Shown in pieces: positions 31,338-51,266 of a DNA stretch of 64,000 bases. The notes beneath the pieces are model-generated. The model was given only the letters and a program-made list of their open reading frames with translations. It searched no databases and was not told the origin of the DNA. Made by a program: the position numbers and the translations under genes. Every line of letters begins with the position of its first letter. Positions within the stretch are counted from its first letter, which is position 1. Source of the DNA: Lacrimispora amygdalina (lineage in GTDB: Bacteria; Bacillota; Clostridia; Lachnospirales; Lachnospiraceae); the NCBI RefSeq assembly GCF_003432035.1, contig NZ_QOHO01000064.1:1-64000 (forward strand), given 5' to 3'.

Positions 31338-33350
31338 ATGGAATCACTATCAAAGAAATCAAATATTTCTAAATTAACATTAGGAGGAGTCCTGGTAACA
31401 TTAGGTGTTGTATATGGAGATATCGGTACTTCGCCGCTATATGTAATGAAATCCGTACTATACGGGAACGGAGGTATTCAGACTGTCTCAGAAAATTTTA
31501 TACTTGGAACCCTGTCCCTGGTATTCTGGACACTCACTATTTTAACAAGCATAAAATATGTATTTATTACATTAAGGGCTGACAACACTGGAGAAGGCGG
31601 TATCTTTTCACTTTTTACACTGGTCAGGAGCCGTTCCAGATGGCTGATTATCCCTGCAATGATCGGAGGTTCTGCGCTGTTAGCAGACGGTATGCTGACT
31701 CCGGCAGTAACCGTGACATCAGCTGTTGAAGGTCTGAAACTGCTGCCTGTTTTTCACCAACTTTTCGGAGAAAATCAGGGAAATATCATTGCTCTGGTTA
31801 TTTTAATAATCTGTATTCTGTTTTTTATTCAGCACATAGGCACTGATTCCATTGGTAAACTGTTCGGTCCCATCATGTTTTTATGGTTCTGCAGCTTAGC
31901 CCTTTTTGGTGTTATTAATCTCGCGCAAAACCCCTTCCTGCTGCGTGCATTATCACCCCATTATGCTATCAATATACTTTTCAGCCCCCACAATAAACTT
32001 GGTTTTTTTATTCTTGGAAGCATATTTTTGTGTTCAACCGGAGCGGAAGCACTTTACTCCGATTTGGGACATGTAGGCAGAAAGAATATTTACTTTACCT
32101 GGCCATTTGTTAAAATATGTTTATTACTCAACTATTTCGGCCAGGGTGCGTGGATTTTATCCTCAAAAAACAACCCTGCTTTCGCCTTAACAGAAGATAT
32201 CAATCCGTTTTATCAGATGATTCCCAATGGTCTGCTTGTATACGGCATCATAATTTCTACCCTTGCCGCCATCATAGCATCTCAGGCCCTAATATCAGGT
32301 TCCTTTACACTTGTATCAGAAGCAATAAAACTGAACTTGTTTCCAAGACTCCATACCATATACCCTTCCCCCTCCAAGGGACAGCTTTATATTCCTGCAA
32401 TCAACCGGATTCTGTGGATTGTCTGTATTGGAATTGTACTTTACTTTCAAAGTTCCGAGAAAATGGAATCAGCGTATGGACTTGCCATAACAGTCACCAT
32501 GCTTATGACTACCATTCTGCTTTTTAACTATATGCTGAAGAAGAAAACGCCCATTCTGCTTGCTGTTATCATGCTTATTTTCTTTATGAGTTTTGAAATT
32601 TCATTCTTCATAGCAAATATAGTTAAATTTTTCCATGGAGGATTTGTAGCCATTATCATTGCTGTATCCATCTTATTTATCATGTATCTCTGGGACAGAG
32701 CTCATGTGATACGGGTTCGCTATGAGGAATTTGTACCCATTGATAATTATTTAGAATTACTGACACAGTTAAGTCAGGACCCGAAAGTTCCCAAATATGC
32801 CAGCAATCTGGTGTGCTTAAGCAAATGTCCGAATCCGAAACAAATTGAACGTAAAATATTGTACTTTCTTCTGGATAAACGGCCAAAAAAAGCCGATGTT
32901 TACTGGTTTGTAGACGTTAATGTAACAGATGAGCCTTATCAGGCAGAATACACGGTGGAAAAATTCAATACAAACAACATTATAAAAATCCAGTTAAAAC
33001 TGGGCTTCCGTATCGATCAAAATCTTAATGTATTTTTACGGCAGATATCAACAGAACTGGTGGAAAACAAAGAAATTGAACCGCAGTCAAACAGTTACTC
33101 CATTCTTCCAAACCGCAAGCTGGGAGATTTTCGTTTCGTATTTATCCAGGAAATTTTATCTCATGATGCCACATTATCCGCCTGGGATTCCTTCGTATTA
33201 AATACCAAACTTTTTATACAGAAGTTCACAGCTTCCCCATCAAACTGGTTCGGACTTGACACCAGTGATGTTTATATTGAAAAAGTTCCAATGTTCCTGG
33301 GACATTCAAACCAGGTTATTTTAAAAAGAGTGGATAGAAAAATGAAGTAA
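31338..33350 (+). CDS. kup: Kup-type potassium uptake protein
   Basis: A 670-residue KUP/HAK/KT potassium-proton symporter with about twelve membrane helices in the first 450 residues and a cytosolic C-terminal domain. Family marks are LGVVYGDIGTSPLYVMKSV (first helix), DNTGEGGIFSLFTLVR, LLADGMLTPAVTVTSAVEGL, STGAEALYSDLGHVGRKNI and SKNNPAFALTEDINPFYQMIPNG. It is a single gene with its own promoter and terminator, and it lies just left of the lantibiotic locus. Confidence 0.96.
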   Translation: MESLSKKSNISKLTLGGVLVTLGVVYGDIGTSPLYVMKSVLYGNGGIQTVSENFILGTLSLVFWTLTILTSIKYVFITLRADNTGEGGIFSLFTLVRSRSRWLIIPAMIGGSALLADGMLTPAVTVTSAVEGLKLLPVFHQLFGENQGNIIALVILIICILFFIQHIGTDSIGKLFGPIMFLWFCSLALFGVINLAQNPFLLRALSPHYAINILFSPHNKLGFFILGSIFLCSTGAEALYSDLGHVGRKNIYFTWPFVKICLLLNYFGQGAWILSSKNNPAFALTEDINPFYQMIPNGLLVYGIIISTLAAIIASQALISGSFTLVSEAIKLNLFPRLHTIYPSPSKGQLYIPAINRILWIVCIGIVLYFQSSEKMESAYGLAITVTMLMTTILLFNYMLKKKTPILLAVIMLIFFMSFEISFFIANIVKFFHGGFVAIIIAVSILFIMYLWDRAHVIRVRYEEFVPIDNYLELLTQLSQDPKVPKYASNLVCLSKCPNPKQIERKILYFLLDKRPKKADVYWFVDVNVTDEPYQAEYTVEKFNTNNIIKIQLKLGFRIDQNLNVFLRQISTELVENKEIEPQSNSYSILPNRKLGDFRFVFIQEILSHDATLSAWDSFVLNTKLFIQKFTASPSNWFGLDTSDVYIEKVPMFLGHSNQVILKRVDRKMK

Positions 33351-33360
33351 AATCATTTGA

Positions 33361-33399
33361 AAAAGACCATCCTGCTTCCGGCAAGACGGTCTCTTTTTA
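33361..33399. terminator. terminator after kup
   Basis: AAAAGACC and GGTCTCTTTTT arms around an inner TGC/GCA pairing, 10 bases after the kup stop. A-rich on the left and T-rich on the right, it may also end the converging immunity operon. Confidence 0.72.
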
Positions 33400-33462
33400 T
33401 CAACAAACAAAATATGAAATTAGCATAAGTTCTCCATTCTTCTTTATGGAAGACAGTTCTCT

Positions 33463-33759
33463 TTATTGCTGAAAGTTCAGTAAAAACGCCAGAGCAATGA
33501 AACCAGCCACCATAAGCACCCATAAAATGCTGATTATCATAGCAATAATATTTACGGCACTCCGGCTTTCGCTGTTTCGTACACAGACAATAGAAAGGCA
33601 TAGTCCTAAAAGTACAAAGACCATGTTTGCTGCGGACCAGATACCTTGTATCCCGCCTGATAAAGTGAACTTGAATAAAATCGGAATAAAGGTTGCTAAT
33701 GGTAAAACACTGATGATCAATGCAGCAATACTTAATTTTTGAAATTTTTTCTTTTCCAT
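33463..33759 (-). CDS. small three-helix membrane protein at the end of the immunity operon
   Basis: A 98-residue hydrophobic protein with three predicted membrane helices (LSIAALIISVLPLATFIPILF, GIWSAANMVFVLLGLCLSIVC, IIAMIISILWVLMVAGFIALAFLL). It starts six bases after the LanG-like permease gene, so it belongs to that operon. Related loci such as ruminococcin A carry an extra small membrane gene after lanFEG, and this may be an accessory immunity protein. That function is inferred only from position. Confidence 0.65.
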   Translation of the reverse strand: MEKKKFQKLSIAALIISVLPLATFIPILFKFTLSGGIQGIWSAANMVFVLLGLCLSIVCVRNSESRSAVNIIAMIISILWVLMVAGFIALAFLLNFQQ

Positions 33760-33764
33760 AATAA

Positions 33765-34529
33765 TTACCTCATTTCTTTCTTTCCAAATTGGAGGACGGA
33801 CAATGTCAGTGCCAGTCCAAAGACCAGTACTGCACAGGGCAGGAACGGGAACAATGAAAGCGCTGCACCGGAATCTGCTGCGGTATAATCATGCAGCGAA
33901 CATGAAACCAAATAGCCGCTGTAACAATATGGATAGACGACCCAAATCGGCGTATTGGCAAACAGAACACCAGGAATGACAAGGAACATGTTTAACCCCA
34001 CAGATAACAGCGGTTTTTCAAACAGAACTGTAATTGCCCACATCACAGCTAAGCAGGGCAGCATGGTAAGGAACAGACCCACACACCATTTCAGCAGGTA
34101 AAGCACCGGCATCGTCTCTGTTATTCCCATCATACCGGTGGCAATCATACCGGCGATGATGAATACTATGAGGAACACAACCATTTCCAGAAAAAGATAA
34201 AACATAAGTATACAGAATTTTGCCAGCGATAACTGATACCTGCTTACCGGAAGTGCCAGCATTTTCAGTATGCCGTTATTCTGTATTTCCCGGTCGGCAA
34301 TCATCACACAGACCACGATCATGGAGAATGGCAGCAGATAATATGCATAGACAAGAGCACTTTGAATAAACATAGCGCGCCACGCGTTTGTATATTCCGG
34401 CGTAAAATAACTGCTCAAATTGGCAATTCCTGATACCACTACCAACAATGGAGCTATAAAAATCAAGGGTACAATTTTCGAACGTTTCACTTTTGTCAAC
34501 TCAATTTTCAGTAATTCATAAAAATTCAT
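33765..34529 (-). CDS. lanG: lantibiotic immunity ABC permease (LanG-like)
   Basis: A 254-residue ABC-2 permease with about six helices, of the MutG/NisG-type immunity group (NFYELLKIELTKVKRSKIVPLIFIAPLLVVVSGI at the N-terminus, DREIQNNGILKMLALPVSRYQLSLAKF after the second helix). It starts 12 bases after the LanE-like gene. Together with LanE and LanF it should expel the mature lantibiotic from the producer's membrane. Confidence 0.88.
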   Translation of the reverse strand: MNFYELLKIELTKVKRSKIVPLIFIAPLLVVVSGIANLSSYFTPEYTNAWRAMFIQSALVYAYYLLPFSMIVVCVMIADREIQNNGILKMLALPVSRYQLSLAKFCILMFYLFLEMVVFLIVFIIAGMIATGMMGITETMPVLYLLKWCVGLFLTMLPCLAVMWAITVLFEKPLLSVGLNMFLVIPGVLFANTPIWVVYPYCYSGYLVSCSLHDYTAADSGAALSLFPFLPCAVLVFGLALTLSVLQFGKKEMR

Positions 34530-34541
34530 TTTACGACCTCC

Positions 34542-35267
34542 TTACTCATAGTGCAGGTTCTTGGACATCCATAATCCTGCACCCAGGAGAAGGACGGTTT
34601 CAGCCACAGATATAATTGCTACGATCCTGTCAGGCTGTGCGCTCATGGCAACCGCCGGCTTCAACATAACGATAAACGGATGCACCAGAAGCAGCCGGGC
34701 ATTGGATGTTGCCAAAGCCATGCCGCTCAAAAATCCTGCTACCCCAATGCCAAGAGGAACCCATATATTTTCAAAGCGGGAGGAAACCAACAGCATAAAG
34801 GACAACATCGGCATAGAGGTAAGAAACGAATACCCGGCAAAGTTAACCAGTGTCCCAAACTCAAACGAGCCCTGGGGCAGGTCTGTTATTCCAATCTGCA
34901 TGAGAGCCAGATTTTGCAGAACGACGGCCGTAAACAACATCACAGTCAAAATTAGGAATTTACAAAAATACATGGCAGGAACACTGGCAGGAAGCATATA
35001 GATTTTCTTGACGGCATTTCCCTTAAACTCCATGTTGTAAATCATACAGGCAGCAACTACAATACCAAACATATTCAGTACCATTATCATCCCATATAGC
35101 TGCGTAAGCAGAACATCCATCGGAGGCAGTGACAGGGCCAACAGCGTATCCTTCCGTACAAGGAAGTTGACAAACGCATAGGCAGCTCCTAAAATCCCGA
35201 CTGCCAGCAGCAGGGGGATTATGCCGGTCCGTTTTTCTTTCTTCAGTTCAATCATAAGCGTTTTCAT
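34542..35267 (-). CDS. lanE: lantibiotic immunity ABC permease (LanE-like)
   Basis: A 241-residue ABC-2 permease, about six helices, of the MutE/EpiE immunity group (LMIELKKEKRTGIIPLLLAVGILGAAYAFVNF; NMEFKGNAVKKIYMLPASVPAMYFCKFLIL). Its start overlaps the ATPase stop by four bases (ATGA type), showing coupling to LanF. Confidence 0.88.
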   Translation of the reverse strand: MKTLMIELKKEKRTGIIPLLLAVGILGAAYAFVNFLVRKDTLLALSLPPMDVLLTQLYGMIMVLNMFGIVVAACMIYNMEFKGNAVKKIYMLPASVPAMYFCKFLILTVMLFTAVVLQNLALMQIGITDLPQGSFEFGTLVNFAGYSFLTSMPMLSFMLLVSSRFENIWVPLGIGVAGFLSGMALATSNARLLLVHPFIVMLKPAVAMSAQPDRIVAIISVAETVLLLGAGLWMSKNLHYE

Positions 35268-36028
35268 AGCTTAGCCCTCTGCTTTCTGTCCGCATTGTCC
35301 TTATCTATCATGGAAAGGAACATATCCTCCAGATTATCCGCAGCGAATCCTGCCTGTAATGCGCTCTGCCTCAGTTCAGCCATACTTCCTTCAAACAGCA
35401 GATTCCCATGGTTAAGGATACCGATGTCGTCCGCCATCAATTCAATTTCCGAAAGCATATGGGATGAAATTAATATTGTGCAGTGGTAGAGACTGGGCAG
35501 TGATTTCACCAGATTGCGGATTTCATGGATGCCGGATGGATCAAGTCCGTTAGTCGGTTCATCCAGAATAAGAATGGGGGGTCTGCCAAGCAGCGCGCCC
35601 GCAAGTCCCAAACGCTGTTTCATGCCCAGAGAATATTTTTTTGCCAGCCGGCTGCCAAATTCTGTAAGGCCCACCAGCCCCAGTGCATCTTCCACCGTTT
35701 CTTCCGGCAAGCCTAAAATCCTTCGTATGATATCAAGGTTCTCACGTCCTGTCAGATTTGCATAATACGAAGGGGATTCAATAAAAGAACCAATTTCTTT
35801 GAGGATTGCCAGCCGGTCACCAGGAAAGTGTTTCCCGTCAATAGTAAAACTTCCTTTTGTGGAGGCAGTAAGCCCTAACAGCATTTTCATGGTGGTGGAC
35901 TTTCCCGCACCATTCGGACCCAGGAAACCGTAAATGCTGCCTTTCCGAATGTGAAGGGATACGTTGTTGACAGAAGTGAAGTCTTTATATTTTTTCGTCA
36001 ACTGGTCTGTTGTGATAATGTAATCCAT
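35264..36028 (-). CDS. lanF: lantibiotic immunity ABC ATPase (LanF-like)
   Basis: A 254-residue ATPase: Walker A GPNGAGKST, signature YSLGMKQRLGLAGALLG, Walker B ILILDEPTNGLDP, H loop SSHMLSE. I start at ATG 36028 (MDYIITTDQLTKKYK) because AAAGGAG lies 8-9 bases upstream; the open frame further upstream is leader. It is the first gene of the immunity operon, divergent from the lanRK genes across a 144-base regulatory gap. Confidence 0.92.
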   Translation of the reverse strand: MDYIITTDQLTKKYKDFTSVNNVSLHIRKGSIYGFLGPNGAGKSTTMKMLLGLTASTKGSFTIDGKHFPGDRLAILKEIGSFIESPSYYANLTGRENLDIIRRILGLPEETVEDALGLVGLTEFGSRLAKKYSLGMKQRLGLAGALLGRPPILILDEPTNGLDPSGIHEIRNLVKSLPSLYHCTILISSHMLSEIELMADDIGILNHGNLLFEGSMAELRQSALQAGFAADNLEDMFLSMIDKDNADRKQRAKL

Positions 36029-36092
36029 AGAAACAACTCCTTTCGATGCTTTCATGATACAACACCAATCTGACATCTACATTCCCGTCTCC

Positions 36093-36111
36093 TTACTTTT
36101 ACATTACTTTT
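36093..36111 (-). promoter_or_regulatory. 11-bp-spaced TTACTTTT repeats between lanF and lanR
   Basis: TTACTTTT occurs at 36093 and 36104 (AAAAGTAA on the minus strand), exactly 11 bp apart, about 65 bases before lanF. The spacing is what an OmpR-family regulator such as LanR would use to control the immunity genes. Sequence similarity to the repeat before lanA1 is weak. Confidence 0.4.
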
Positions 36112-36145
36112 GGGAAAGAGTATACGCAACCACTGCCTGCTATGT

Positions 36146-36151
36146 TATAAT
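36146..36151 (+). promoter_or_regulatory. extended -10 promoter for lanRK
   Basis: TATGTTATAAT gives a perfect TATAAT preceded by TG, the extended -10 form, 21 bases before the lanR start; GGAGGG sits between them as the ribosome site. No clear -35 is visible. Confidence 0.55.
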
Positions 36152-36172
36152 GGCCTCATCGGAGGGTACACT

Positions 36173-36874
36173 ATGGACAATTTATTTTTACAAAATAAAA
36201 AGCTTCTGCTTGTTGATGATGAGCTGGACCTGCTTAAAATGGTAACTGCCATTCTAAGGGATAATGGCTTCGAGAATATCACTACCGCTTCTACGGTCGG
36301 AGAAGGCGTTGCTGCTGCCCAAAAGGAAGCACCTGACCTGGCAGTTCTGGATGTCATGCTGCCGGATGGAGATGGATTTTCTTTAATGCAGCAACTGCGG
36401 TTATTTACCAACGTGCCGGTTATTTTTCTTACGGCAAAGGACGAGGCAGCGGATAAACTGGCTGGACTGGGCCTTGGTGCAGACGATTATATCGCTAAAC
36501 CATTTCTGCCTCAGGAATTACTGCTACGCATCTACGCAGTTTTGCGCCGCTGCTATAAGGAAGACGAACAGCTGATACCGTTGGCCGGATGCACCATTGA
36601 CTTCAGCCGGGCTGAAATCCACAAGGCAGATGAGATCATCCCGCTGACCGCAAAGGAATATACCTTATTAGAGGTTCTCGCAAGAAATGACGGTAAAATC
36701 GTCACGGTAGACTCACTGTGCGAAGCCCTTTGGGGTGATAATCCATTTGGATATGAAAACAGTCTGAATGCCCATGTGCGGCGCATCCGGGAAAAGATTG
36801 AAGCAGACCCGTCAAAGCCGGTTTCCCTTATAACAATAAAAGGATTGGGCTATAAACTTAATACAAGGAAGTGA
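36173..36874 (+). CDS. lanR: lantibiotic two-component response regulator
   Basis: A 233-residue OmpR-family regulator: acidic pocket LLLVDDE, phosphoacceptor Asp60 in LAVLDVMLPDG, FLTAKDE, DYIAKPF, and a winged-helix domain ending HVRRIREKIEADPSKPVSLITIKGLGYKL. The ATG at 36173 has GGAGGG upstream. It is coupled to the kinase gene four bases later. In the ruminococcin A locus the equivalent regulator activates precursor transcription; here it lies between the immunity operon and the precursors and likely controls both. Confidence 0.92.
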   Translation: MDNLFLQNKKLLLVDDELDLLKMVTAILRDNGFENITTASTVGEGVAAAQKEAPDLAVLDVMLPDGDGFSLMQQLRLFTNVPVIFLTAKDEAADKLAGLGLGADDYIAKPFLPQELLLRIYAVLRRCYKEDEQLIPLAGCTIDFSRAEIHKADEIIPLTAKEYTLLEVLARNDGKIVTVDSLCEALWGDNPFGYENSLNAHVRRIREKIEADPSKPVSLITIKGLGYKLNTRK

Positions 36875-36878
36875 AGCC

Positions 36879-38240
36879 ATGAAATCATTTGTGAGATATA
36901 TTCTAAAATACATGATCTCCTTTGCAGCCGTTATCCTGGTACTCCTCTTAATCAATGTGATAGCTTTTTGTCTTACTTTTGGCCGCGCATTGACAAAAGA
37001 TTATGGGGAAACTTCCCCTCAAAATTTACTGGAGGAAACTGCGGCGGCCTGCTCAGCAGATGGAATATCCGAAGAAGCTGCCCAAAAGCTGAAGCACAAT
37101 CAAATATGGGCTGTATTCCTGAATCAGGAAGGCAGATGTGTATGGTCAGCAAATGCACCGGAGGATCTTCCAGTATCCTATACCATTCAGGACGTTGCCC
37201 TGTTTTCAAAGGGCTATCTTAACGATTTCCCTGTATTTGTCCGAAACACGGAAGACGGACTGTTAATATTAGGTTATCCCAAAGACAGCTATACAAAAAT
37301 TACCGGTAATTATTTTTCATTGCAGGCAATCCGGCTTCTGCCGTTTTATATTACGGCTATACTGGTGATAGACTGTCTGATTTTATTTGCTGCTTATTAT
37401 CTGTCCAAACGAAAGATTGTTAAGAACACGGAGCCAATCATTTCCTCCTTAAAAAACCTTTCTGACGGCATACCGGTTTCTCTGTCCATTAGCGGAGAAC
37501 TGTCAGAGTTAGCCGACAGCGTAAACAAATCTTCCCGGATACTCAGCAGGCAAAACCAGGCGCGGGCCAACTGGATCAGCGGCGTCTCCCATGACATCCG
37601 AACACCGCTTTCGATAATAATGGGATACGCAGATCGCATTATGCATGATGAAACTTCAAGCAAAACAGTCAAAGATCAGGCAGAAATCGTAAAGATGCAA
37701 AGCATTAAAATCAAAGAACTCGTACAGGACTTAAATCTGGTGTCCAGACTGGAATATGACATGCAGCCAATAAACAAAACCCAGGTACGCATTCGTTCAT
37801 TGATGCGCTCGTATCTGGCAGAACTGCTGAATACCGGTATATCGGATGCCTATTCCATAGAACTTAAAATTGAACCTGCTGCTGAAACAGTCATATTTGA
37901 GTGTGACGCCCGGCTGATCTCACGGGCTATCGCTAATTTAGTACAGAACAGCATTCGTCATAACCCGAAAGGCTGCGCCATCACGCTTCTTTTGGAGGAT
38001 AGGGAAACCTCTTTCTCTATTACTGTTGCAGATAATGGTACAGGGCTGTCAGCAGAAAAGCTAAAGGAACTGGAAGAAAAACCGCACTACATGGAAAGTA
38101 CTGATGAACGGTTAGATTTGCGGCATGGTCTGGGACTTATACTTGTCCGGCAGATCGTGGAAGCTCACGGCGGTGCGATACAAATAGAAAGTAAAGTCCT
38201 GCAAGGATATAAAACAGTTTTAACATTCCCAAAAGCATAA
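36879..38240 (+). CDS. lanK: lantibiotic two-component sensor histidine kinase
   Basis: A 453-residue kinase with an N-terminal membrane helix (about 9-33), an extracellular domain of about 120 residues, a second helix (about 155-175), a HAMP-like linker, the H box SGVSHDIRTPLSI with His238, N box ANLVQNSIRHNPKG, G1 DNGTGLS and G2 HGLGLILVRQIVEAHGG. Unlike the short kinase at 14456 it has a real external sensor. Its ligand could be the lantibiotic itself or a gut signal. Confidence 0.92.
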   Translation: MKSFVRYILKYMISFAAVILVLLLINVIAFCLTFGRALTKDYGETSPQNLLEETAAACSADGISEEAAQKLKHNQIWAVFLNQEGRCVWSANAPEDLPVSYTIQDVALFSKGYLNDFPVFVRNTEDGLLILGYPKDSYTKITGNYFSLQAIRLLPFYITAILVIDCLILFAAYYLSKRKIVKNTEPIISSLKNLSDGIPVSLSISGELSELADSVNKSSRILSRQNQARANWISGVSHDIRTPLSIIMGYADRIMHDETSSKTVKDQAEIVKMQSIKIKELVQDLNLVSRLEYDMQPINKTQVRIRSLMRSYLAELLNTGISDAYSIELKIEPAAETVIFECDARLISRAIANLVQNSIRHNPKGCAITLLLEDRETSFSITVADNGTGLSAEKLKELEEKPHYMESTDERLDLRHGLGLILVRQIVEAHGGAIQIESKVLQGYKTVLTFPKA

Positions 38241-38256
38241 AAAGTCTGAAACAATT

Positions 38257-38292
38257 GGCGTTGATTCATTTTTAGTGAATTAACGCCTTTTT
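38257..38292 (+). terminator. terminator after lanK
   Basis: GGCGTTGATTCA and TGAATTAACGCC (one mismatch in 12) followed by five T residues, 17 bases after the lanK stop. It isolates lanRK transcription from the precursor promoter. Confidence 0.85.
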
Positions 38293-38314
38293 CTGTATCC
38301 TGCTATCAGAAATC

Positions 38315-38352
38315 GAGGAAAAATTACATGCTAAAGGAGGAAAAATTACATG
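38315..38352 (+). promoter_or_regulatory. 16-bp direct repeat at 22-bp period upstream of lanA1
   Basis: GAGGAAAAATTACATG occurs perfectly at 38315 and 38337, that is two helical turns apart. A TTAATT/TATGTA promoter-like pair (17-base spacing) starts at 38359, leaving the repeats directly upstream of the -35. This is the likely LanR activator site for the precursor genes. The ATG ends of the repeats do not open frames of any length. Confidence 0.6.
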
Positions 38353-38433
38353 TTCCTGTTAATTCATGAAATAGGTATTATTATGTAACCATAATCCTAT
38401 TTGGGAAACATCAAAGGAGAAGGGAGAATTAAT

Positions 38434-38580
38434 ATGAGAAATGATATTCTTGAATTAACAAATCCAATGGAAGAAAAAGAACTGGAGCAGATTTTGGGCG
38501 GTGGCGATGGTGTTATTAAAACAATCAGCCACGAATGTGCAATGAATACATGGCAGTTTATTTTTACATGCTGTTCATAA
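38434..38580 (+). CDS. lanA1: lanthipeptide precursor, ruminococcin A/lacticin 481 type (copy 1)
   Basis: A 48-residue class II precursor. The leader (residues 1-23, MRNDILELTNPMEEKELEQI then LGG) ends in the double-Gly site cut by the LanT peptidase. The 25-residue core (24-48) begins GDGVIKTISHECAMNTW and ends in FTCCS. By analogy with lacticin 481, core Thr7-Cys12, Ser9-Cys23 and Thr16-Cys24 should form the (methyl)lanthionine rings, and Thr22 should become dehydrobutyrine. The leader is nearly that of RumA from R. gnavus. A GGAGA/GGGAG ribosome site precedes it. Too short for routine gene callers. Confidence 0.95.
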   Translation: MRNDILELTNPMEEKELEQILGGGDGVIKTISHECAMNTWQFIFTCCS

Positions 38581-38593
38581 GGAGGGAAAAAAA

Positions 38594-38740
38594 ATGAGAA
38601 ATGATATTCTTGAATTAACAAATCCAATGGAAGAAAAAGAACTGGAACAGATTTTGGGCGGTGGTGACGGCGTGATCAAAACGATCAGCCATGAATGTGC
38701 AATGAATACATGGCAGTTTATTTTTACATGCTGCTCATAA
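38594..38740 (+). CDS. lanA2: lanthipeptide precursor, identical protein to copy 1 (copy 2)
   Basis: Encodes exactly the same 48 residues as lanA1, 13 bases after its stop, with its own GGAGGG site. The two genes differ at nine positions, all synonymous third bases and all between codon 18 and codon 47. Duplicate identical precursors raise peptide output; ruminococcin A has three copies. The 5' 51 bases and most of the last 14 codons are identical in DNA, which suggests recent duplication with partial gene conversion, or selection on the protein. Confidence 0.95.
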   Translation: MRNDILELTNPMEEKELEQILGGGDGVIKTISHECAMNTWQFIFTCCS

Positions 38741-38779
38741 TACTATAAAACATATAATGCTCTCAAATAGGATTTATGA

Positions 38780-38818
38780 ATAGGCCGCTTAGAAAAATAT
38801 TTAATCTAAGCGGCCTAT
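38780..38818 (+). terminator. perfect 14-bp hairpin between lanA2 and lanM, probable attenuator
   Basis: ATAGGCCGCTTAGA and TCTAAGCGGCCTAT with an 11-base AT loop. There is no T run after it (GTAATAAATAAAG follows), so it should reduce rather than abolish read-through, giving much more precursor than LanM/LanT mRNA and perhaps stabilising the short lanA transcript. Confidence 0.72.
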
Positions 38819-38873
38819 GTAATAAATAAAGTATTTTGGGAGAGAAGTCAAGCGGATATTACGGAGGGACCAT

Positions 38874-41621
38874 ATGGATAAAATATTTGGCAGATTATAT
38901 ATAGACTATATATTTCAATATATTATCAGGAAAGTAAAAGAAGAGGATAAGATTGACTTCAATGATAACGAATTTAAATCTTTGAAGGAACTGATCAAGC
39001 TGGAACTATTTAAAAGGAGTTTTAAATCTTTATTATATTGTATGAATGCATGCCGGGTGGATGGTAATCTGACAGGTGATACATCGGAAAATCGATATCT
39101 TTGGTTTTGTAATAACCAATATTGTATTGATGCAATGGAAAAGATGTTTCCATGCATGAAAGAACAGTTATATGAAGAAGTTAAAGGAAAATTCAGCTAT
39201 ATTTTAGAAATAATCAACTTATTTCAAAGAAATAAATCGGCCATATGTCAATACTTTTTTCATACGCAATCGGAGGATATTATAAACATAACAAATTCCG
39301 GGGATTGGCACAATGATAAGTGTGTGTTGGTAATAACTTTTGCATCAAAGAAAAAATTAGTTTTCAAGCCCTCCAAAGGGGATAACTTAAATTTTCTGAA
39401 GGGACTATTAAGTTACTTTTTTGAAGATGAATATACCAGACAGTATGACTGTATGTGCGAAAGTGAGGGAACATGGGTAAAATTTGTTGAACATGAGGAA
39501 ATATATGACAAAAGCGAAGTAAATCAATTCTATTTTAACTATGGGAAACTCTTATTTGCTGCATATCTGTCAGGTATGAACGATATGCATTATGAAAATT
39601 TAATCGCTCATGGTAAATTTCCTGTAATTACAGATGTTGAAACAATTTTCTCTTCCTATCTGTTTTTTGATACGCACAAATTTGAATACGATGCGCAGTA
39701 TAAAGCAGTGCAGCGATTATTATATGGGGTTATGGCTACTGGTCTGATCCCAATATTTTCTATGACAGAGTATTTCGGGGGTGATGTCAGTTGTTTATCA
39801 AATAAAGGTATAAAAATCGTTGCTGAAAAAGTAAAGAATGAGTATAGAGATGATATGTATATTTTTACGGAACCAAAAATGATTACGCAATATAATCATC
39901 TGCCAAATAAAGAAACAGACCCATTATTCTATGGAGATCAGATATTAAACGGGTTTGAACAAGCCGAAAAACTGTATAAGGAGAAAAAAGATGACATATT
40001 AAATTATATTCTGGACAATTTAACGAAGATTGAATCACGTATTATTCTCAATATGACCAAGGGGTATTCAAAAATAATAAGAATAAAGAGCGACCCCAGA
40101 TATCGGAATAATCCGGAATTATTTTACGGATTACTGGAAAATTTAAAAAGAAGCAATCAATTTAATCAGGACGTTTACATGTATGAGGTACATGAATTAT
40201 GCAAAAGTAATATACCTGGCTTTTATTGGAATATGTCTCTTAATTATGTCTATGGATATCATGGAAATACGAAAAAAAAGATATTGGACATGCATGAGTT
40301 CAGCCTGAAGAAAGCATACGATATTTTGGAGGCTCAGACAAATCCGAAGATGTTATCAAGACAAAAACAGCTTATTCGTGAATCAATTACATCGAGTATC
40401 GCTTTGGGGATTGAATATAAAGATATGAGGGTGAGCGATAAAAAAGAAATACGTTCAGAGAATAATAAACCACTGAGAGAAAATATTGATGACAACCGGA
40501 TTGTTGGTGACGACGGTACAATCAGTTGGATCGGGCTTATGGTAAATGATAAGGAACAATTGGAATATGCGGTATTAGATTGGTCATTATATTCCGGATT
40601 GACAGGAATCGGTTATATGTATCTTTCTGAATATTTAATTAATAAAGATGAGTTTACAAAATCGATTATAGAGATGATTTATAATACAATTAAAACAGCT
40701 TATCATATGGGGATGTTTAACGATTATAATATTTCTTATTTCTGCGGTCTGACCGGAATCTATGCTTTTATAGCAAAAATTAAGGAGACCGGAATCATAA
40801 AATATGATGAAACAGACCTGTTTCTTAGGGAAATTAAAAAATTAGTGAAAAATAATATATCAAAAACAAACTGTTATGATACTTTATCAGGTCTGCACTC
40901 AGCAGTTATCTATTTTTTTGCCAGGTATGAGTCAGACGATTTTGCAAAAGAAATTCTACCGGCAATAGCGGAATATTTTATTTCTGATTTTGATACTGGT
41001 GTTATGGATAAAAATTTTAATTATGCCAGCTTTGCACATGGATATTCAGGTATTATGACATCCATTATGTGTATGAACAGAATTGCCAAACAGGAAGCGC
41101 TGATAACATTGGCACGAGGGTTATGGGAAAAGGAACAGCGGCTATATACAGGAAAGTATATGTGGAAGGACTTAAGGAGCAGTGAGGATACATATTCTCA
41201 TTTTTGGTGTCATGGTTCTTGTGGAATCATGTATTCCCGTTTAATTTGGAAGAAATGGGGTTTTATAAATGATGGAATAATCGGAATGAGTGAATCAGAC
41301 CTGGATAATCTTCTGGCTCAGTATAGAGAAGTAATCGAAAGCAAAGTTCTAAATTCTCAAAACTATTCTTTATGTCATGGAAATTTTGCTTTTATAGATT
41401 TCATCCTTTCGTATGAGAAGGTACTGGGAGAAAAACCTGAAAAGGAAAATTATATTATTCAGACCATGGAGGATGCACAAAAACAAGGATATAGTTGTAT
41501 AGGAGCACCAGGCGCTATCAATGCGATTGGATTTATGGTAGGAGAATCTGGAATACAATATTTACTGAACCGTTATAAAAATTTGAAATTACCTTCTGTA
41601 TTGGCAATAGAAAATATATAG
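38874..41621 (+). CDS. lanM: class II lanthipeptide synthetase LanM
   Basis: A 915-residue bifunctional enzyme that dehydrates Ser/Thr in the precursor core and then closes the thioether rings. The N-terminal DUF4135 dehydratase (about 80-470) contains KLVFKPSKGDNLNFLKGLL and MNDMHYENLIAHGKFPVITDVETIF. The C-terminal LanC-like cyclase (about 560-910) keeps the zinc ligands Cys779 (HFWCHGSCG), Cys834 and His835 (YSLCHGNFA). Length and ligand positions closely match LctM. It is markedly AT-rich compared with chromosomal neighbours. GGAGGG precedes the ATG. Confidence 0.97.
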   Translation: MDKIFGRLYIDYIFQYIIRKVKEEDKIDFNDNEFKSLKELIKLELFKRSFKSLLYCMNACRVDGNLTGDTSENRYLWFCNNQYCIDAMEKMFPCMKEQLYEEVKGKFSYILEIINLFQRNKSAICQYFFHTQSEDIINITNSGDWHNDKCVLVITFASKKKLVFKPSKGDNLNFLKGLLSYFFEDEYTRQYDCMCESEGTWVKFVEHEEIYDKSEVNQFYFNYGKLLFAAYLSGMNDMHYENLIAHGKFPVITDVETIFSSYLFFDTHKFEYDAQYKAVQRLLYGVMATGLIPIFSMTEYFGGDVSCLSNKGIKIVAEKVKNEYRDDMYIFTEPKMITQYNHLPNKETDPLFYGDQILNGFEQAEKLYKEKKDDILNYILDNLTKIESRIILNMTKGYSKIIRIKSDPRYRNNPELFYGLLENLKRSNQFNQDVYMYEVHELCKSNIPGFYWNMSLNYVYGYHGNTKKKILDMHEFSLKKAYDILEAQTNPKMLSRQKQLIRESITSSIALGIEYKDMRVSDKKEIRSENNKPLRENIDDNRIVGDDGTISWIGLMVNDKEQLEYAVLDWSLYSGLTGIGYMYLSEYLINKDEFTKSIIEMIYNTIKTAYHMGMFNDYNISYFCGLTGIYAFIAKIKETGIIKYDETDLFLREIKKLVKNNISKTNCYDTLSGLHSAVIYFFARYESDDFAKEILPAIAEYFISDFDTGVMDKNFNYASFAHGYSGIMTSIMCMNRIAKQEALITLARGLWEKEQRLYTGKYMWKDLRSSEDTYSHFWCHGSCGIMYSRLIWKKWGFINDGIIGMSESDLDNLLAQYREVIESKVLNSQNYSLCHGNFAFIDFILSYEKVLGEKPEKENYIIQTMEDAQKQGYSCIGAPGAINAIGFMVGESGIQYLLNRYKNLKLPSVLAIENI

Positions 41622-41636
41622 AAAGGAGAAGTCAGT

Positions 41637-43688
41637 ATGAAAGTTATCTTGCAGACAAATCAATCGGATTGTCTTCTTGCTTGTGCAGCGATGATTATGG
41701 ATACATTTAAGTGCAGAATTCCAGTTTACCGGTTGGTGGAAAAGGTAGAATTGTCCATGGCCGGAAGCAATGTTCTGCAGTTAAAAGAGGCATTAGGAGA
41801 ATATGGCTTTTCCGTAGAAGGTTATAAAGTTGAGAGCGAAAAATTCAACCAGACAATATTACCTATCATTGCATATGTAAATAACGGTCATTTTATTATT
41901 ATCAATAAAGTAACCAAAAACAAATTTATTGGAATTGATCCGGCGATAGGAAGAATCGCTTATTCCCATGCAGAGTTTAAAAGTATCTATAGCGGTGTTG
42001 TTATAAAAATTACTAAAACCCGGAAACATGTAAAAAATGTGGTAGTAAAGCAGCGGGAGATATTAGGATTCTTAAACAATACTAAATTAATAACGATTTT
42101 ATTTGGACTGTTAATTACTTCAATTTTTACTCAAATTGTAGCTATGAGCTATTCATATATGTATTCTGCAGGTAAGAACGACTCTTACTTAAATCTGTCC
42201 TTAATATTAATTGCTGCGGTTGTCCTATTAGGGACAGGCAGTATGATCCAGGGCTTCTTAACAAAAAAATTTAATATATTATATGAACAGATATACGGTA
42301 ACAGACTCGTTGATAAACTTATAAGTAAAAACTACAAGTTCTTTACATTCAGAAGCAATGGTGACTTATTATATCGTATCAACGCAAGAGGAATGATAAA
42401 AGACGCCCTGCTATTCAAAATAGTCCCATCTTTTATAGCACTATGTACCATTATTGTAGTTCAAGTCGCTTTGTTTCAGAAGAGTTTATTTTTGGGGGGA
42501 CTTTTTCTGACTGCTAATATTTTATATTTGATATTTTATATAGGGATTAGTAAACTAATATATATGGAGAGCAATAAATATACACAAAAATTGATTAAAC
42601 TCAATACAACAAGTGAAAATATAATCAGGACAATCTCAACTATTAAGGTTTTGGATGTCGGCAACATTTTCATGAAAAAATGGCATAATGAAAATGAAGA
42701 ACAGACAGAGCGTTACGGTCAGTTAGTCATTTTGCAAAGCATTCAAAGTGTATTAACAAATATCTATACATATGTTGTTCCCATAGTAATTAGTATCATA
42801 AACATAGTTTGCAACAGAAATACTGATATTTTCAGCCAGATGGCATTATTACCACTGCTATATTTAGTAGTTCAAAATGTAATAACAATCGGACAGGCTT
42901 TTAATTCTTTATATACCGTACTGCCAAATATAGATAAAACAAATGAATTATTAGATGAAAATTTTATGCAGGACAATGAGCGTAAAGTTTCCAATTTGAA
43001 TAATGATGAGGAAATACATGTCGAAAATATGTCATATTACTACGGTAATTTTAAATGTCTTGAAAATGTAAATTTACAGATTAAAAAGGGCAGGAGGTAT
43101 GCGGTTATAGGAATATCCGGAAGCGGAAAGTCCACATTATTAAAGGTTTTAGCAAATCTTTTTAATGATTATAAAGGTGAAGTAATATTTGATTCTGCTA
43201 ATGAGGATAAGCCAGTATATCTTGACCAGGACACATCTATTCTGGACAGCAGTATATTAGAAAATGTATTATTCGGCCAGCAATGTACAAATGAAAGACT
43301 GGCCAGCATCAGCCAGGCTACAGGATTAGAGGATATTATTAACAGACTACCGCAAAAATGGGCAACTGAGATATCAAAAGGAAAAAACCTGTCCCGTGGT
43401 CAGGAACAACGGATTTGTCTGGCAAGATGCCTGATTAAAGATGCCAGAATATATTTACTTGATGAAGCAACAAGTAATATTGATGTTATTGATGAAGAAA
43501 AGATCATGAATAATCTGATTGGTCCAAATGGTATTTTAGAAGGTAAGACTGTGTTTATCTCCACACATAAATTAAGTATGATAAATTATGCTGACGAGAT
43601 AATATATATAAAGGAAGGGACCGTATATCAGGGAACCCATGAACAGCTGTTGCAGAGGTTTCCTTCTTATGAAAACTTCTTTGAATAA
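41637..43688 (+). CDS. lanT: lanthipeptide transporter/leader peptidase LanT
   Basis: A 683-residue AMS-type exporter that removes the leader after the double Gly and exports the peptide. The N-terminal C39 peptidase has Cys12 in QSDCLLACAAM, His85 in NNGHFIIIN and Asp101 in IGIDPAIG. Membrane helices span about 145-420. The ATPase domain has Walker A GISGSGKST (492-500), signature LSRGQEQRICLARCL and Walker B IYLLDEATSNID. It starts 15 bases after lanM behind AAAGGAG. It is the last gene of the biosynthetic unit; no LanP protease is present or needed. Confidence 0.97.
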   Translation: MKVILQTNQSDCLLACAAMIMDTFKCRIPVYRLVEKVELSMAGSNVLQLKEALGEYGFSVEGYKVESEKFNQTILPIIAYVNNGHFIIINKVTKNKFIGIDPAIGRIAYSHAEFKSIYSGVVIKITKTRKHVKNVVVKQREILGFLNNTKLITILFGLLITSIFTQIVAMSYSYMYSAGKNDSYLNLSLILIAAVVLLGTGSMIQGFLTKKFNILYEQIYGNRLVDKLISKNYKFFTFRSNGDLLYRINARGMIKDALLFKIVPSFIALCTIIVVQVALFQKSLFLGGLFLTANILYLIFYIGISKLIYMESNKYTQKLIKLNTTSENIIRTISTIKVLDVGNIFMKKWHNENEEQTERYGQLVILQSIQSVLTNIYTYVVPIVISIINIVCNRNTDIFSQMALLPLLYLVVQNVITIGQAFNSLYTVLPNIDKTNELLDENFMQDNERKVSNLNNDEEIHVENMSYYYGNFKCLENVNLQIKKGRRYAVIGISGSGKSTLLKVLANLFNDYKGEVIFDSANEDKPVYLDQDTSILDSSILENVLFGQQCTNERLASISQATGLEDIINRLPQKWATEISKGKNLSRGQEQRICLARCLIKDARIYLLDEATSNIDVIDEEKIMNNLIGPNGILEGKTVFISTHKLSMINYADEIIYIKEGTVYQGTHEQLLQRFPSYENFFE

Positions 43689-43868
43689 TTATTTGTTACT
43701 GATCAGATGAGTGTCGTAGTTGTGCTCATTTTAACTGTCATAAAGCTTCTTCGTTTTCTGTCAATTTTTTTGTATTGCACATGGCGGGCAGTGCCCCGCC
43801 ATGTTATTACCATATTTTCATAAACTCATCGAGAGCAGAAAGTGCTCCTGTCATCACAGTATCCCAAA

Positions 43869-44540
43869 TCAATCAGTCCTCAATATCCAACAACCGGGTA
43901 TTGGTTCCCCGCTCAATTCTTCCAGTATCTCTTTTGGTGTCTCCTCCTCCCACTCAGAAGGCGGACGGGAGCAGTTAATATACTCTTTGTAGACCGGTAA
44001 GTTCGGAACATCAGGATTGAGTGTCCCCATCAGGTAATCGCACCGCATGGCTGACTCTCTTATAAATTCAATATCAGCAGTGTTAATCTCATCTATGTAC
44101 AGCAGCCGTACTGACCACCCAGGGTTTTCTGCCACTTCTTCTTGTCGCCATAGCCTAAACATAGATGACCTTATCCCCTCCTGAAGTATGAAAGAGAATG
44201 TGCGGGATCTTATCGTCTTTGGTTCCGTTGCCGTTGTACTCAGTCAGGATGCCGAAATCATCTATATGCCCAGATCCTTATTGATGATACTCTTCTCAGC
44301 AGTACCAGTATCCTTTGCTGCTATTATGTGCAGCTTCTTAGGACTCTCCGCAACCTTAAGCATGAACTTAAAAAGACCGACTGTCGTTTTACCCGCAGCC
44401 GTTGTCCCTTCAAGAAATTCCACTGGGAGTGTTAACTCATTACCGGCGAAGACTTTATAGCTGCATCCGCCTCAGCCTGTATGCGGCTGTTTATACTGGC
44501 TCTATCTGCTCTGCAGTCTTTTGATGATTTACTCAATTTA
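43869..44540 (-). pseudogene. phage terminase large subunit remnant
   Basis: The minus strand holds terminase (PBSX-type) pieces in several frames. From the 5' side these are YKVFAGNELTLPVEFLEGTT with the Walker A AAGKTTV, then KKLHIIAAKDTGTAEKSIINKDL and a stop, then ILTEYNGNGTKDDKIPHILFHTSGG, then the Walker B-like segment LLYIDEINTADIEFIRESAM and MGTLNPDVPNLPVYKEYINCSRP. At least two frameshifts and in-frame stops break it, and the nuclease half is missing. It belongs to a decayed prophage and not to the prophage at the right, whose terminase would lie beyond the window. Confidence 0.78.
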
Positions 44541-44685
44541 TCCCTCCTCCGGCAAATATTAGATCATTCTGTTAAAATTATATTTCTGTTTTTCTCAACA
44601 ATTATGTAACACCAATATAAGCAACTAATATAATGCTAGTAAAACAAGTGCTTTTAAAAAGTTGATTTTATGAGGAGTCAAAATT

Positions 44686-45021
44686 ATGGATATTAAATCT
44701 GTTATTGCTTATCGTATTGATGATACTATTAACGTTTTAGTTTTAGCTGACCTACCGCGTCCGTGTGACTATGCCAGAATTTATGGCACATATCCGGGAA
44801 ATATATATCATGTTGCGGATCCCGGCAAAGCAGAAGTATTTATTGAATTTTATGAGAGCCCCGAATCATGTTCTACAGTTATTCAACCATGGTTATCAAG
44901 TGTGCAAATAAAAGACACTGCTTATAACGAAGTGGACGTCTTTGTTGATGGTGAAAGCGTAATGTCTGTTCCAATATTTAATTATTCTATGCCCCAACCC
45001 ACGACTTTCTATCTAAGATAA
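44686..45021 (+). CDS. hypothetical protein, 111 residues
   Basis: I do not recognise this protein. It is a soluble, acidic, beta-rich-looking sequence (DDTINVLVLADLPRPCDYARIYGTYPGNIYHV; EVFIEFYESPESCSTVIQPWLSS; VDVFVDGESVMSVPIFNY) with no membrane helix or signal peptide. TGAGGAG lies 8 bases before the ATG, and the AT-rich sequence upstream could hold a promoter. It sits intact between two phage pseudogenes, so it may be cargo that is still selected. No relation to the lantibiotic genes can be shown. Confidence 0.55.
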   Translation: MDIKSVIAYRIDDTINVLVLADLPRPCDYARIYGTYPGNIYHVADPGKAEVFIEFYESPESCSTVIQPWLSSVQIKDTAYNEVDVFVDGESVMSVPIFNYSMPQPTTFYLR

Positions 45022-45023
45022 GT

Positions 45024-45508
45024 TCATCGGTCAAAGTTCAACCACAACGTCTCCACCCTCGAAAGACTATTCTGAGCTCTGGCCGGAATCTGTATTTTCC
45101 TCCAGCCCTTCAGATACTTTTTATACAGCCACAGTCATATCCGGAAAGCATGATCTTAGCCTTACTGTGAATACTTGTATCCAGCAGCTCCTCATGATCC
45201 TCGTCAGACATTTCATGCCGGTACTGCTTCCTGCCTCGTGTAGACCATACATAAGGCGGATCCAGGTAGATCAACACATTTTCGTGATCAAAGGCCCTAA
45301 TCAGCTCCAGCGTCGACTTATTCTCAATCTGTACTTCTTTCAACCTGATCGCCATTTCTGCCACTTCCGAAAGACGGTTCCAATTTCTTAGCGCATAGGC
45401 TGCTTCCCTGCTTGAACAGCTTTCCTGTGACTTTAATTTGCGATTCTTCTGCGCTTTTGGCAATTGGTATCTCCAAAGATAATGTGCAGTATTTGCACGA
45501 TCATGCAA
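45024..45508 (-). pseudogene. Dam-type adenine-specific DNA methylase remnant
   Basis: The longest piece keeps the catalytic motif LIYLDPPYVWSTRGRKQYRHEMSDEDHEELL and AKIMLSGYDC. The C-terminus continues in another frame (KYLKGWRKIQI..., ending TLWLNF), matching the end of phage Dam enzymes. The N-terminal SAM-binding part is missing and at least one frameshift is present. It is part of the same decayed element as the terminase remnant. Confidence 0.75.
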
Positions 45509-45681
45509 ATCCAGTTAATATTGGAGGCAAAACACCAGAGCAGGTTGCTATTTATGTTGCTGTTTGGACACTTTTATAACTAATTAACATGCTGATTACA
45601 TTCATGGGCTGTTGCAAAAGTAGACGAATAATTTACCGGAGCAACAGTTACATTTTGTGTCTCTAAACAAAAAGATAGAAA

Positions 45682-45726
45682 AAAATCAGGTTGAAATCAA
45701 TGCAGTAGAATTTCGACCCTGATTTT
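45682..45726 (-). terminator. terminator after the hypothetical gene at 45742
   Basis: AAAATCAGG and CCTGATTTT with an extended inner pairing (GGTTGAAAT with ATTTCGACC). Read on the minus strand it ends in a T-rich run. Confidence 0.6.
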
Positions 45727-45741
45727 ATCCATAGAAGGAAA

Positions 45742-46146
45742 TTATTTACCAATTAAATTATTAGTGTAATCCTCCATATTATAAAGTGCTGTTTTAAAAT
45801 CTCCATCTTTTATGTACGTTACCGTTACAGTCTTATTATCAGAAGATAATTTTAAATCACTAAATTCTGTATTAACTAATTCCGTACCCATAAATTTATT
45901 AATAGTCCATTCTTTAAAAGCTTGAGAATCTGAAGGAAACATATTATCTATTACAATTCTGTAAATAATTTCCTTGTCATTATTTGTTTCGGTAAAGACA
46001 TAAAAGTTATACGTTCCATTGGAAACTATATGTTTATTAAAAACATTGTTCGAACCTCTTCTATTTACCATGTAAACATCATCATATTTAAAAGCATAAA
46101 TAGAAAAGCCATGTTCACTGTCCCCTTCCATGAAATTTGGCGTCAT
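45742..46146 (-). CDS. hypothetical protein, possibly N-terminally truncated
   Basis: A 134-residue unrecognised protein with alternating hydrophobic and polar strands (YNFYVFTETNNDKEIIYRIVIDNMF; LKLSSDNKTVTVTYIKDG), which suggests a small beta-rich domain. There is no ribosome binding site before the ATG and no signal peptide, so it may be the surviving C-terminal end of a larger secreted or phage protein. A hairpin terminator follows. Confidence 0.42.
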   Translation of the reverse strand: MTPNFMEGDSEHGFSIYAFKYDDVYMVNRRGSNNVFNKHIVSNGTYNFYVFTETNNDKEIIYRIVIDNMFPSDSQAFKEWTINKFMGTELVNTEFSDLKLSSDNKTVTVTYIKDGDFKTALYNMEDYTNNLIGK

Positions 46147-46679
46147 AGCTAGCTATTATGATGTATTTAAAAGCTAATATACATACTTTTCCTTTCTTTT
46201 ATTTTTGTGGCTATAATACATTCAGATTCTACGGAATTTAGATTCTTATATATGGTTAACTGCTTGATGGGCTGTATTGCAAGAGCTTTGTTTAAATTAT
46301 TTATAGTCTTAGATGTGCAGGTACTTTAAAATATACACGGCGCATTTTTTCTGATGTTTCCTATGCTATTTAAGTAACTTCGAGACATACAATTTCCATT
46401 AATTTTCTCAAAAGCCAATAGTCTTTATTAATACATCAAACGCACCAAAAGTAATATATTACATTTTATTCCACTTTCTCTAATTATGATATTATACTCT
46501 CTATGCTTATCCTTTTCAATGATAAGTGATCAATTAGGTAATCAGATTGATTAATTTTCCCAAAAACAAAACCATGTCGACAGTAAGATGTTAACGAGCA
46601 GCCCTGGTATTATATATGAGGTACATCAGTGCCACATGAAAAGATAGCGTATTAAATTCCAATCTTCAATAGTCCTAAT
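46147..46679. other. gene-free AT-rich spacer
   Basis: About 530 bases with no ORF of useful length, no recognised RNA and only short runs of homopolymeric A/T. It lies inside the decayed element, and I see nothing functional in it. Confidence 0.5.
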
Positions 46680-46689
46680 CTAGCCAAAA

Positions 46690-47525: not shown

Positions 47526-47656
47526 GAGGGCAATCCTGGATTAACAGCCCTCAAAAACACCAAAAATGCCCACGCAAACAAGCGCAAACACCAGATACAC
47601 AAAGTAAAAACCCCAGAAACCCTTATTTTATCAGGTTTCTGAGGCTTTCATAAGAG

Positions 47657-51264: not shown

Positions 51265-51266
51265 GA

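Follow-up and report, generated by a model that had tools for sequence, protein, structure and literature searches.

An intact-looking lantibiotic locus of the ruminococcin A type in Lacrimispora amygdalina, with two identical precursor genes and a core peptide already in print

Lantibiotics of the lacticin 481 and nukacin group are made with a LanM synthetase and a C39 peptidase-containing LanT, and lantibiotics can also act as signals. The ruminococcin A cluster, as set out in PMC6071512, where RumA was fused to a carrier, comprises rumFEGHR2, rumRK, rumTX, rumA1A2A3 and rumM. Table 1 of PMC9927145 prints for "Clostridium indicum" (WP_117418566.1) a 25-residue core that agrees at 25 of 25 residues with the one described below, and in NCBI taxonomy C. 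indicum is listed as a name of Lacrimispora amygdalina. According to the same paper, this core was expressed in S. mutans T8 behind the mutacin II leader, the transcript of the fusion was present, and activity did not rise above that of the deletion control on 12 indicators, none of them clostridia.

The window analysed here, 64,000 nucleotides of L. amygdalina DNA, holds between 33463 and 43688 what is very probably an intact class II (LanM) lantibiotic locus, seemingly in working order, of the ruminococcin A type within the lacticin 481 group (Table 1). All of the genes named in a sequence-only reading of this DNA (lanFEG, lanRK, two lanA, lanM and lanT) are present, with lanH-G-E-F on the minus strand, lanR-K-A1-A2-M-T on the plus strand and every frame open, and family scores and conserved catalytic motifs agree with that reading in calling the locus complete and of the lacticin 481/ruminococcin A type. 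The LanM zinc ligands (WCHG at 778, LCHG at 833) are found in the window and in six of six clostridial relatives, and in LanT the C39 peptidase domain scores 112 bits against a cut-off of 22 around an intact QSDC catalytic segment. LanT, LanF/E/G and LanR/K all meet Pfam cut-offs, which for LanF/E/G are those of general ABC-2 and ABC families; the curated Mut/Epi-type immunity cut-offs (TIGR03732, TIGR03733, TIGR03740) are missed by LanF, LanE and LanG. The names lanE and lanG follow gene order, the gene at 33765 (lanG) scoring best against the MutE model (50 bits, cut-off 145) and the gene at 34542 (lanE) reaching 24 bits against the MutG model (cut-off 117). The start coordinate first given for the block, 33463, is the end of a previously unnamed 98-aa gene, which is called lanH here because it adjoins lanG in six of six clostridial relatives (L006-L011) and which matches no Pfam or NCBIfam model.

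Table 1. Features of the locus, in window coordinates. Profile scores for lanR were computed from a start at 36170, one codon upstream of 36173.
Feature	Position	Strand	Evidence
lanH-like small protein, 98 aa, candidate immunity accessory	33463..33759	-	behind lanG in 6/6 clostridial relatives, 40-74% identity
lanG, ABC-2 permease	33765..34529	-	PF12730, 112 bits
lanE, ABC-2 permease	34542..35267	-	PF12730, 39.5 bits
lanF, ATPase of immunity ABC transporter	35264..36076	-	PF00005; best NCBIfam TIGR03740 (gallidermin ABC), 245 bits, cut-off 310
Putative LanR operator in divergent lanF/lanR gap, CAAAAGTAATGTAAAAGTAAGG, 11-nt tandem repeat	36091..36112	-	repeat conservation; role inferred
lanR, OmpR-family response regulator	36173..36874	+	PF00072, PF00486
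lanK, sensor histidine kinase	36879..38240	+	PF00512, PF02518
Intrinsic-terminator-like hairpin 3' of lanK	38257..38287	+	14-pair stem, then TTTTT
Putative LanR operator of lanA, two GAGGAAAAATTACATG repeats 22 nt apart	38315..38352	+	exact 16-nt direct repeat
5' arm CATAATCCTATTTGGGA, predicted lanA transcript start	38390..38406	+	conserved in 7/7 loci with few changes; pairs with 38761-38778
lanA1, 48-aa precursor, leader MRNDILELTNPMEEKELEQILGG, 25-residue core	38434..38580	+	NF040664 82 bits, PF04604 87 bits
lanA2, peptide identical to lanA1	38594..38740	+	NF040664 and PF04604 scores; 9 synonymous differences from lanA1
3' arm TCTCAAATAGGATTTATG	38761..38778	+	complementary to 5' arm; conserved in 7/7 loci with few changes
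Hairpin between lanA2 and lanM, perfect 14-bp stem	38780..38818	+	RNA model R1 matches in 7/7 loci
lanM, bifunctional lanthionine synthetase, 915 aa	38874..41621	+	TIGR03897, 435 bits, cut-off 304; zinc-ligand motifs
lanT, C39 peptidase-ABC exporter, 683 aa	41637..43688	+	PF03412, PF00005, PF00664; QSDC segment intact

Both precursor genes score too far above the family cut-offs for a chance match (NF040664, 82.2 bits against 46; PF04604, 87.2 against 21.7), and all nine differences between them fall at third positions, a pattern consistent with selection on the peptide. The leader ends in a double-glycine cleavage site (LEQILGG/G). Set against the ruminococcin A core as we take it to be, the core differs by Asn2Asp, Leu5Ile, Asn13Ala, Leu20Ile and an extra C-terminal Ser. 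It presumably carries thioether rings T7-C12, S9-C23 and T16-C24; the Ser, Thr and Cys residues required for these three predicted rings are all in place, and the monoisotopic mass expected after loss of four waters computes to 2718.19 Da. The core had been put forward as a new variant, a proposal that an identical core already described under another name would refute, and Table 1 of PMC9927145 prints just such a core; the core peptide is thus already known. Nor are the changes flagged as distinctive peculiar to it, as every one occurs in other family loci: among the peptides of 11 relatives, Asp2 recurs in L008, L010, L011 and L012, Ala13 in L006 and L007, Ile5 and Ile20 are common, and the C-terminal Ser is found in 11 of 11, with some further members ending in CC. 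Position 13 is A, N or H among these relatives and R, K, H, A or N in Table 1 of PMC9927145. Given that this position is among the variable ones, the suggestion that loss of its Asn alters lipid II binding is unsupported.

On the strength of the conserved genes, motifs and repeats, a course of events may be proposed. Two identical precursors would raise dosage; LanM would dehydrate Ser and Thr and then close the three thioether rings; LanT would cut after the double glycine and export the 25-residue peptide, which might be expected to bind lipid II via its TISHEC ring; LanFEG with LanH would protect the producer; and LanRK would switch on lanA and lanFEGH via the tandem repeats before each. 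Judged from its intact genes the locus is likely functional, the sole test of the core that was found having been negative and made in a foreign system. An unlikely alternative is that the intact locus yields something other than mainly an antibiotic, either a signal that the producer itself perceives via LanRK or a peptide of so narrow a spectrum that ordinary panels miss it. The negative activity test reported in PMC9927145 and the operator-like repeats in the divergent lanF/lanR region would fit such a role, but a heterologous test is weak evidence, and the candidate immunity transporter is kept in six of six relatives, which suggests a product toxic to its producer.

Upstream of lanF, AAAAGTWAKGTAAAAGTAAGG recurs in all seven loci (the window and six clostridial relatives), and two aligned boxes precede lanA in the same seven, though L010 and the first box of L009 are degenerate; both sets of repeats are putative LanR operators. 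The hairpin behind lanA is likewise conserved in seven of seven loci according to RNA model R1, which was built from those same loci. Run over 397 family genomes, R1 matches in four, the one in its own genome being the true match. The match in G252 (45.5 bits) was read as a terminator behind what we take to be a ribosomal protein gene, and those in G053 and G335 are weak. A scan of 33000-46500 gave no Rfam match at or above the gathering score, and the two matches listed are at chance level.

At its predicted 5' end (start site placed from TATTAT at 38379-38384), the lanA transcript is complementary to a stretch just before this hairpin. Tentatively, and with the balance somewhat against it, the lanA mRNA may be clamped at its ends, its first ~16 nt pairing with ~18 nt directly 5' of the lanA-lanM hairpin, so burying the 5' end and making the short precursor mRNA more stable than the lanM portion; this arrangement, with other arm sequences, may also occur in a streptococcal/Atopobacter branch of the family. 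With 25 dinucleotide shuffles, the number as good as the observed pairing was 0 for the window, L007 and L008, 2 for L006, and 7 for L010 and L011, and L009 paired best in another way. Against mononucleotide shuffles in fixed 60/100-nt windows the clamp is not strong (as good among 300: window 22, L006 34, L007 41, L008 2, L009 35, L010 7). When the 3' arms were re-dealt among six loci, 36 of 720 arrangements equalled the observed score and none exceeded it. Covariation lies within that of shuffles, with no pair changed on both sides (six rows, without L011 and with L008 shifted by one), and the minimum-energy fold of L009 is formed without the clamp. Among 13 other family loci examined by one rule, which left out L045, L054, L056, L058 and L061, the loci L012, L013, L016, L043 and L044 had 69-946 equally good places elsewhere; in L045, L054, L056 and L058, with several lanA each, nothing consistent emerged under dinucleotide shuffles, and in L045 nothing with fixed windows either. 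Because covariation is weak, the clamp is a lead only.

The full FEGH-RK-A-M-T set is found in six of six clostridial relatives fetched (L006-L011), and since the nine gene types stay together although their order varies, it looks as if they move as one block. This bears on the improbable view that FEGH-RK is a stand-alone peptide-resistance module merely adjoining an A-M-T cassette. A related FEG-RK set elsewhere in the genome (C170, L037; identity 51% for R, 38% for K and 54% for F) has no lanA family match, and the FEGH and RK blocks lie on the other side or apart in L007 and L008, but FEGH-RK accompanies A-M-T in every one of the six relatives, with identities falling in step with those of LanM and LanT.

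Among three LanC-like matches in the genome considered as second copies, that in C92 belongs to a different cluster, of class I. C85, a near-identical 3.8-kb contig spanning window positions 40384-44204, matches without substitutions and is 6 bases shorter in lanM and 3 bases longer in lanT, the latter at a site where window LanT is one residue shorter than C85 and six relatives (L009-L011 being poorly aligned there); with neither unique sequence nor flanks of its own, it was rejected as a second copy. That these two in-frame indels betray a decaying or mis-assembled locus is very improbable, as C85, which lacks flanks of its own and keeps both frames, has the look of an assembly bubble or of mixed strains, and all window genes are open with motifs intact. 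A prophage lies directly downstream of the locus. Precursor relatives number zero in viral_contigs and zero in phages, so, on present evidence, the locus did not come as phage cargo; a plasmid search with the precursor gave 14 records, the best at 62%.

This is, then, a gut lantibiotic cluster of an already known type, and with a published core and the customary genes it adds little as an antibiotic locus. Its small corrections to the record are the two identical precursors and, in what is likely the native host, a full complement of immunity and regulatory genes; these could help explain the failed foreign-host test. Should the end-clamp prove true, it would offer a simple answer to how such clusters could make more precursor than enzyme from a single operon.

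Among the closest known systems, the locus of Clostridium sp. Marseille-P2415 (L006), a relative within the genus, agrees with the window in all nine gene types and their order, in having two lanA, and in the repeats and hairpin, at 74-92% identity (98% for the precursor), its core differing only in having Asn2. Its flanks are different: agr-like genes and an XRE-type regulator in two copies there, with gene names assigned by our own reading, and kup and the prophage here. The lacticin 481/nukacin group (NF040664) shares the TISHEC...FTCC pattern of the core, whereas its plasmid members are no more than 62% identical to the window precursor, and the clostridial leader, with MRND... or MNK...LEQILGGG, differs from theirs. 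The leader and core of ruminococcin A we take to be near-identical to those of the window, with four core substitutions and the C-terminal Ser. The "C. indicum" locus is called monopeptide in PMC9927145, whereas the window has two identical lanA. Set beside the ruminococcin A cluster of Ruminococcus gnavus E1 (AF320327) as PMC6071512 describes it, the block agrees in most gene types (FEGH, RK, several identical lanA, M and T); it has two lanA instead of three, and R2 and X were not seen in it.

In its gene content the lantibiotic block is complete and of a familiar, ordinary type, and the full gene set that the sequence-only reading had placed there is borne out by the ORF listing and the profile scores. 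Both lanA precursors consist of a MRNDILELTNPMEEKELEQILGG leader followed by the same 25-residue core, and both reach 82 bits with the lacticin 481 family profile NF040664, whose cut-off is 46; of the 147 bases, 9 differ between the two genes, each change silent and at a third codon position. Likewise, LanM scores 435 against a cut-off of 304. LanM retains WCHG, CHG and the DMHYEN...DVE segment and LanT its QSDC catalytic segment. LanF, LanE and LanG all fall below the curated cut-offs of named immunity subfamilies. The value of the locus, which is low to moderate, resides mainly in a conserved hairpin behind the last lanA and in a possible pairing of the ends of the lanA messenger.

Features of the lantibiotic block and of associated stretches (C85, C92 and C170 are other contigs of the same genome; L006 is the Clostridium sp. 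Marseille-P2415 locus)
Feature	Sequence	Position	Strand	Remark
lanF, lanE, lanG, 98-aa lanH-like protein	window	within 33463-43688	minus	ORF listing and profile search
lanR, lanK, two lanA, lanM, lanT	window	within 33463-43688	plus	ORF listing and profile search
Terminator-like hairpin behind lanK	window	38257-38287
TATTAT	window	38379-38384		possible -10 box
5' arm, CATAATCCTATTTGGGA	window	38390-38406
3' arm	window	38761-38778
Hairpin behind last lanA	window	38780-38818		conserved in 7/7 loci
Stretch matched by C85	window	40384-44204		zero substitutions
6-base loss in C85, lanM	window	40814-40819		in frame
3-base gain in C85, lanT	window	42169-42170		in frame
Phage remnants	window	43869-47642
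Stretch resembling parts of the remnants	same contig	68.5-74.8 kb		85-91% similar
Prophage	window	49833-63178
Class I cluster (L022)	C92	2359-13217
FEG-RK set (L037)	C170	5426-10069
agr-like genes	L006	2203-4551; 15555-16683		including two XRE-type regulators

The seven loci that carry the hairpin are the window and six clostridial relatives (L006-L011); all hairpin pairs are kept, and two have changed on both sides. A covariance model built from them matches all seven and no further locus among 25 sources, the seven extra matches being the opposite strand of the same sites. Among 397 family genomes it finds the window genome and three weaker matches, one read as an ordinary terminator and one other weak. 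The 18-base segment directly before the hairpin is also kept in all seven loci and is complementary to the 5' arm, and the two may clamp the ends of the lanA messenger together, a lead that we think somewhat likelier to fail than to stand. In its favour, among 500 mononucleotide shuffles 0 gave an arm duplex as good or better in the window, and 11, 0, 1, 77, 4 and 10 did so in L006-L011; the minimum-energy transcript fold includes the clamp in six of the seven. Over 20-25 kb scanned per locus, windows that pair just as well with the 24-base arm number 3 of 1246 here and 4, 4, 3, 10, 12 and 6 of 1004 in L006-L011. These counts include, unseparated, the genuine site and the reverse strand of the arm itself; by estimate few or no chance partners are left in the window and L006-L008. 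Sliding the partners by 1-3 columns lowers the share of paired cells from 90.5% to 51.8% or less, the structure having been drawn from one of these rows. Thirteen loci in other branches of the family were tested by one fixed rule, which gave no equally good place in L053, L063, L064 and L074, 1 of 140 in L062 and 7 of 993 in L014, with arms quite unlike the clostridial ones in sequence; within the set L053, L061-L064 and L074, one position pairs as A-U in two loci and as G-C in three, with a mismatch in L074.

Against the clamp, covariation in the clostridial set does not exceed that of shuffles, and no clamp-helix pair has changed on both sides. When the arms are permuted, 36 of 720 arrangements equal the observed score and none exceeds it; wider windows weaken the signal, and 25 dinucleotide shuffles do not distinguish L010 or L011 (7 as good in each). 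The fixed rule likewise gave 29 of 582 equally good places in L015 and 24 of 142 in L059, and no clamp in L012, L013, L016, L043 and L044. Because the arm in streptococcal loci is also similar to a repeated promoter motif, CTTTATCTT, it may be a DNA operator there. A narrow search of literature listings, with most subscription papers outside it, turned up no article about this kind of pairing in lantibiotic messengers.

Whether a clamp could form depends on where transcription starts. Given the terminator-like hairpin after lanK, lanA probably has its own promoter. TATTAT stands where the other six loci, by eye in the alignment, have TGnTAnnnT; as a -10 box it would predict a start near 38391, and the 5' arm would therefore be the extreme 5' end of the transcript. 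CATAAT could be the -10 box instead, and most of the arm would then lie outside the transcript; a consensus promoter scan of 35900-44000 (35 sites, 34.9 expected) by itself lends no support. In all seven loci a pair of GGAAAAWTTACAWG-like boxes, spaced by about 22 nt, aligns upstream of lanA; in L009 the first box is degenerate, and L010 has weaker versions of both. Similarly, an 11-nt tandem AAAAGTAAGGTAAAAGTAAGG precedes lanF in all seven, with one base change in the window, L010 and L011. Tandem 11-nt half-sites fit OmpR-type regulators, and the repeats are putative LanR sites.

The locus looks rare and scattered within its family, since NF040664 matches are few: the family scan matched 1 of 397 genomes (the window genome alone), the genus scan 2 of 25 and the order scan 2 of 392, while the genus of genome G622 gave 3 of 29 and that of G755 18 of 284 (12 above cut-off). 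The genus of the window genome also includes G414, with match coordinates that agree with those of L006. A plasmid collection holds 14 records with precursor relatives (top identity 62%); a phage collection and viral contigs hold none. By tblastn with the window proteins, F, E, G, H, R, K, A, M and T are co-located in all of L006-L011 (by title, L008 a Eubacteriaceae MAG and the others Clostridium, Kineothrix and Pseudobutyrivibrio), rearranged in order in L007-L011; identity declines in step across genes (LanM 81, 71, 58, 51, 50 and 50%), and the cluster appears to travel as a unit. The other five scanned loci, L012-L016, match only part of the proteins. Because C170 carries an FEG-RK set related to the lan immunity and regulator genes, with no lanA nearby by precursor search, the immunity half would seem to resemble peptide-resistance modules of a broader class.

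The same genome holds a second lantibiotic cluster, of class I, on C92, with FEG-like and RK-like genes, LanC, an ABC transporter and LanB (PF04738/PF14028). Its 57-aa precursor ends IASIVYCTSGCLTGTTCETSECGITRSCTNTVLCY and passes the gallidermin/nisin family cut-off (37 vs 29 bits); a 17-residue piece of its core was not found by full-text literature search. The 3.8-kb contig C85 (L019) is either an assembly bubble or a strain mixture. Directly behind lanT lie phage remnants, with D12 methylase and integrase fragments by profile and a piece read by eye as terminase, without a profile match; the prophage further on, together with L020, has amidase, tape measure, major head and portal genes. The L006 flanks hold agr-like genes (AgrB-like, AgrC-like kinase, LytTR-type regulator) and an almost identical pair of XRE-type regulators, all named by sequence reading without profiles.

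The window core keeps its TISHEC ring segment intact. Relative to the ruminococcin A core, Asp2, Ile5, Ala13, Ile20 and an extra C-terminal Ser had been flagged, but these changes are ordinary, and all occur among the 11 loci found by scanning GTDB species genomes with the window precursor: Asp2 in four (L008, L010, L011, L012), Ala13 in two (L006, L007), Ile5 and Ile20 commonly and the Ser in all. The L006 core differs solely by Asn at position 2.

Nor is the core the new variant that had been proposed; it is already known. A full-text literature search with the core string returned a single paper, PMC9927145, whose Table 1 prints the same 25-residue core under Clostridium indicum WP_117418566.1. 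In NCBI taxonomy the name C. indicum resolves to Lacrimispora amygdalina, and the window genome is likely a Lacrimispora. There the core was joined to the mutacin II leader and expressed in S. mutans T8; transcript of the hybrid gene was present, and zones against 12 indicators were about those of the mutA deletion and never larger. The outcome is negative, but the host is foreign, none of the indicators was a clostridium, and the passages covered describe no check of modification. The paper treats the C. indicum locus as a monopeptide system, whereas the window carries two lanA genes for an identical peptide.
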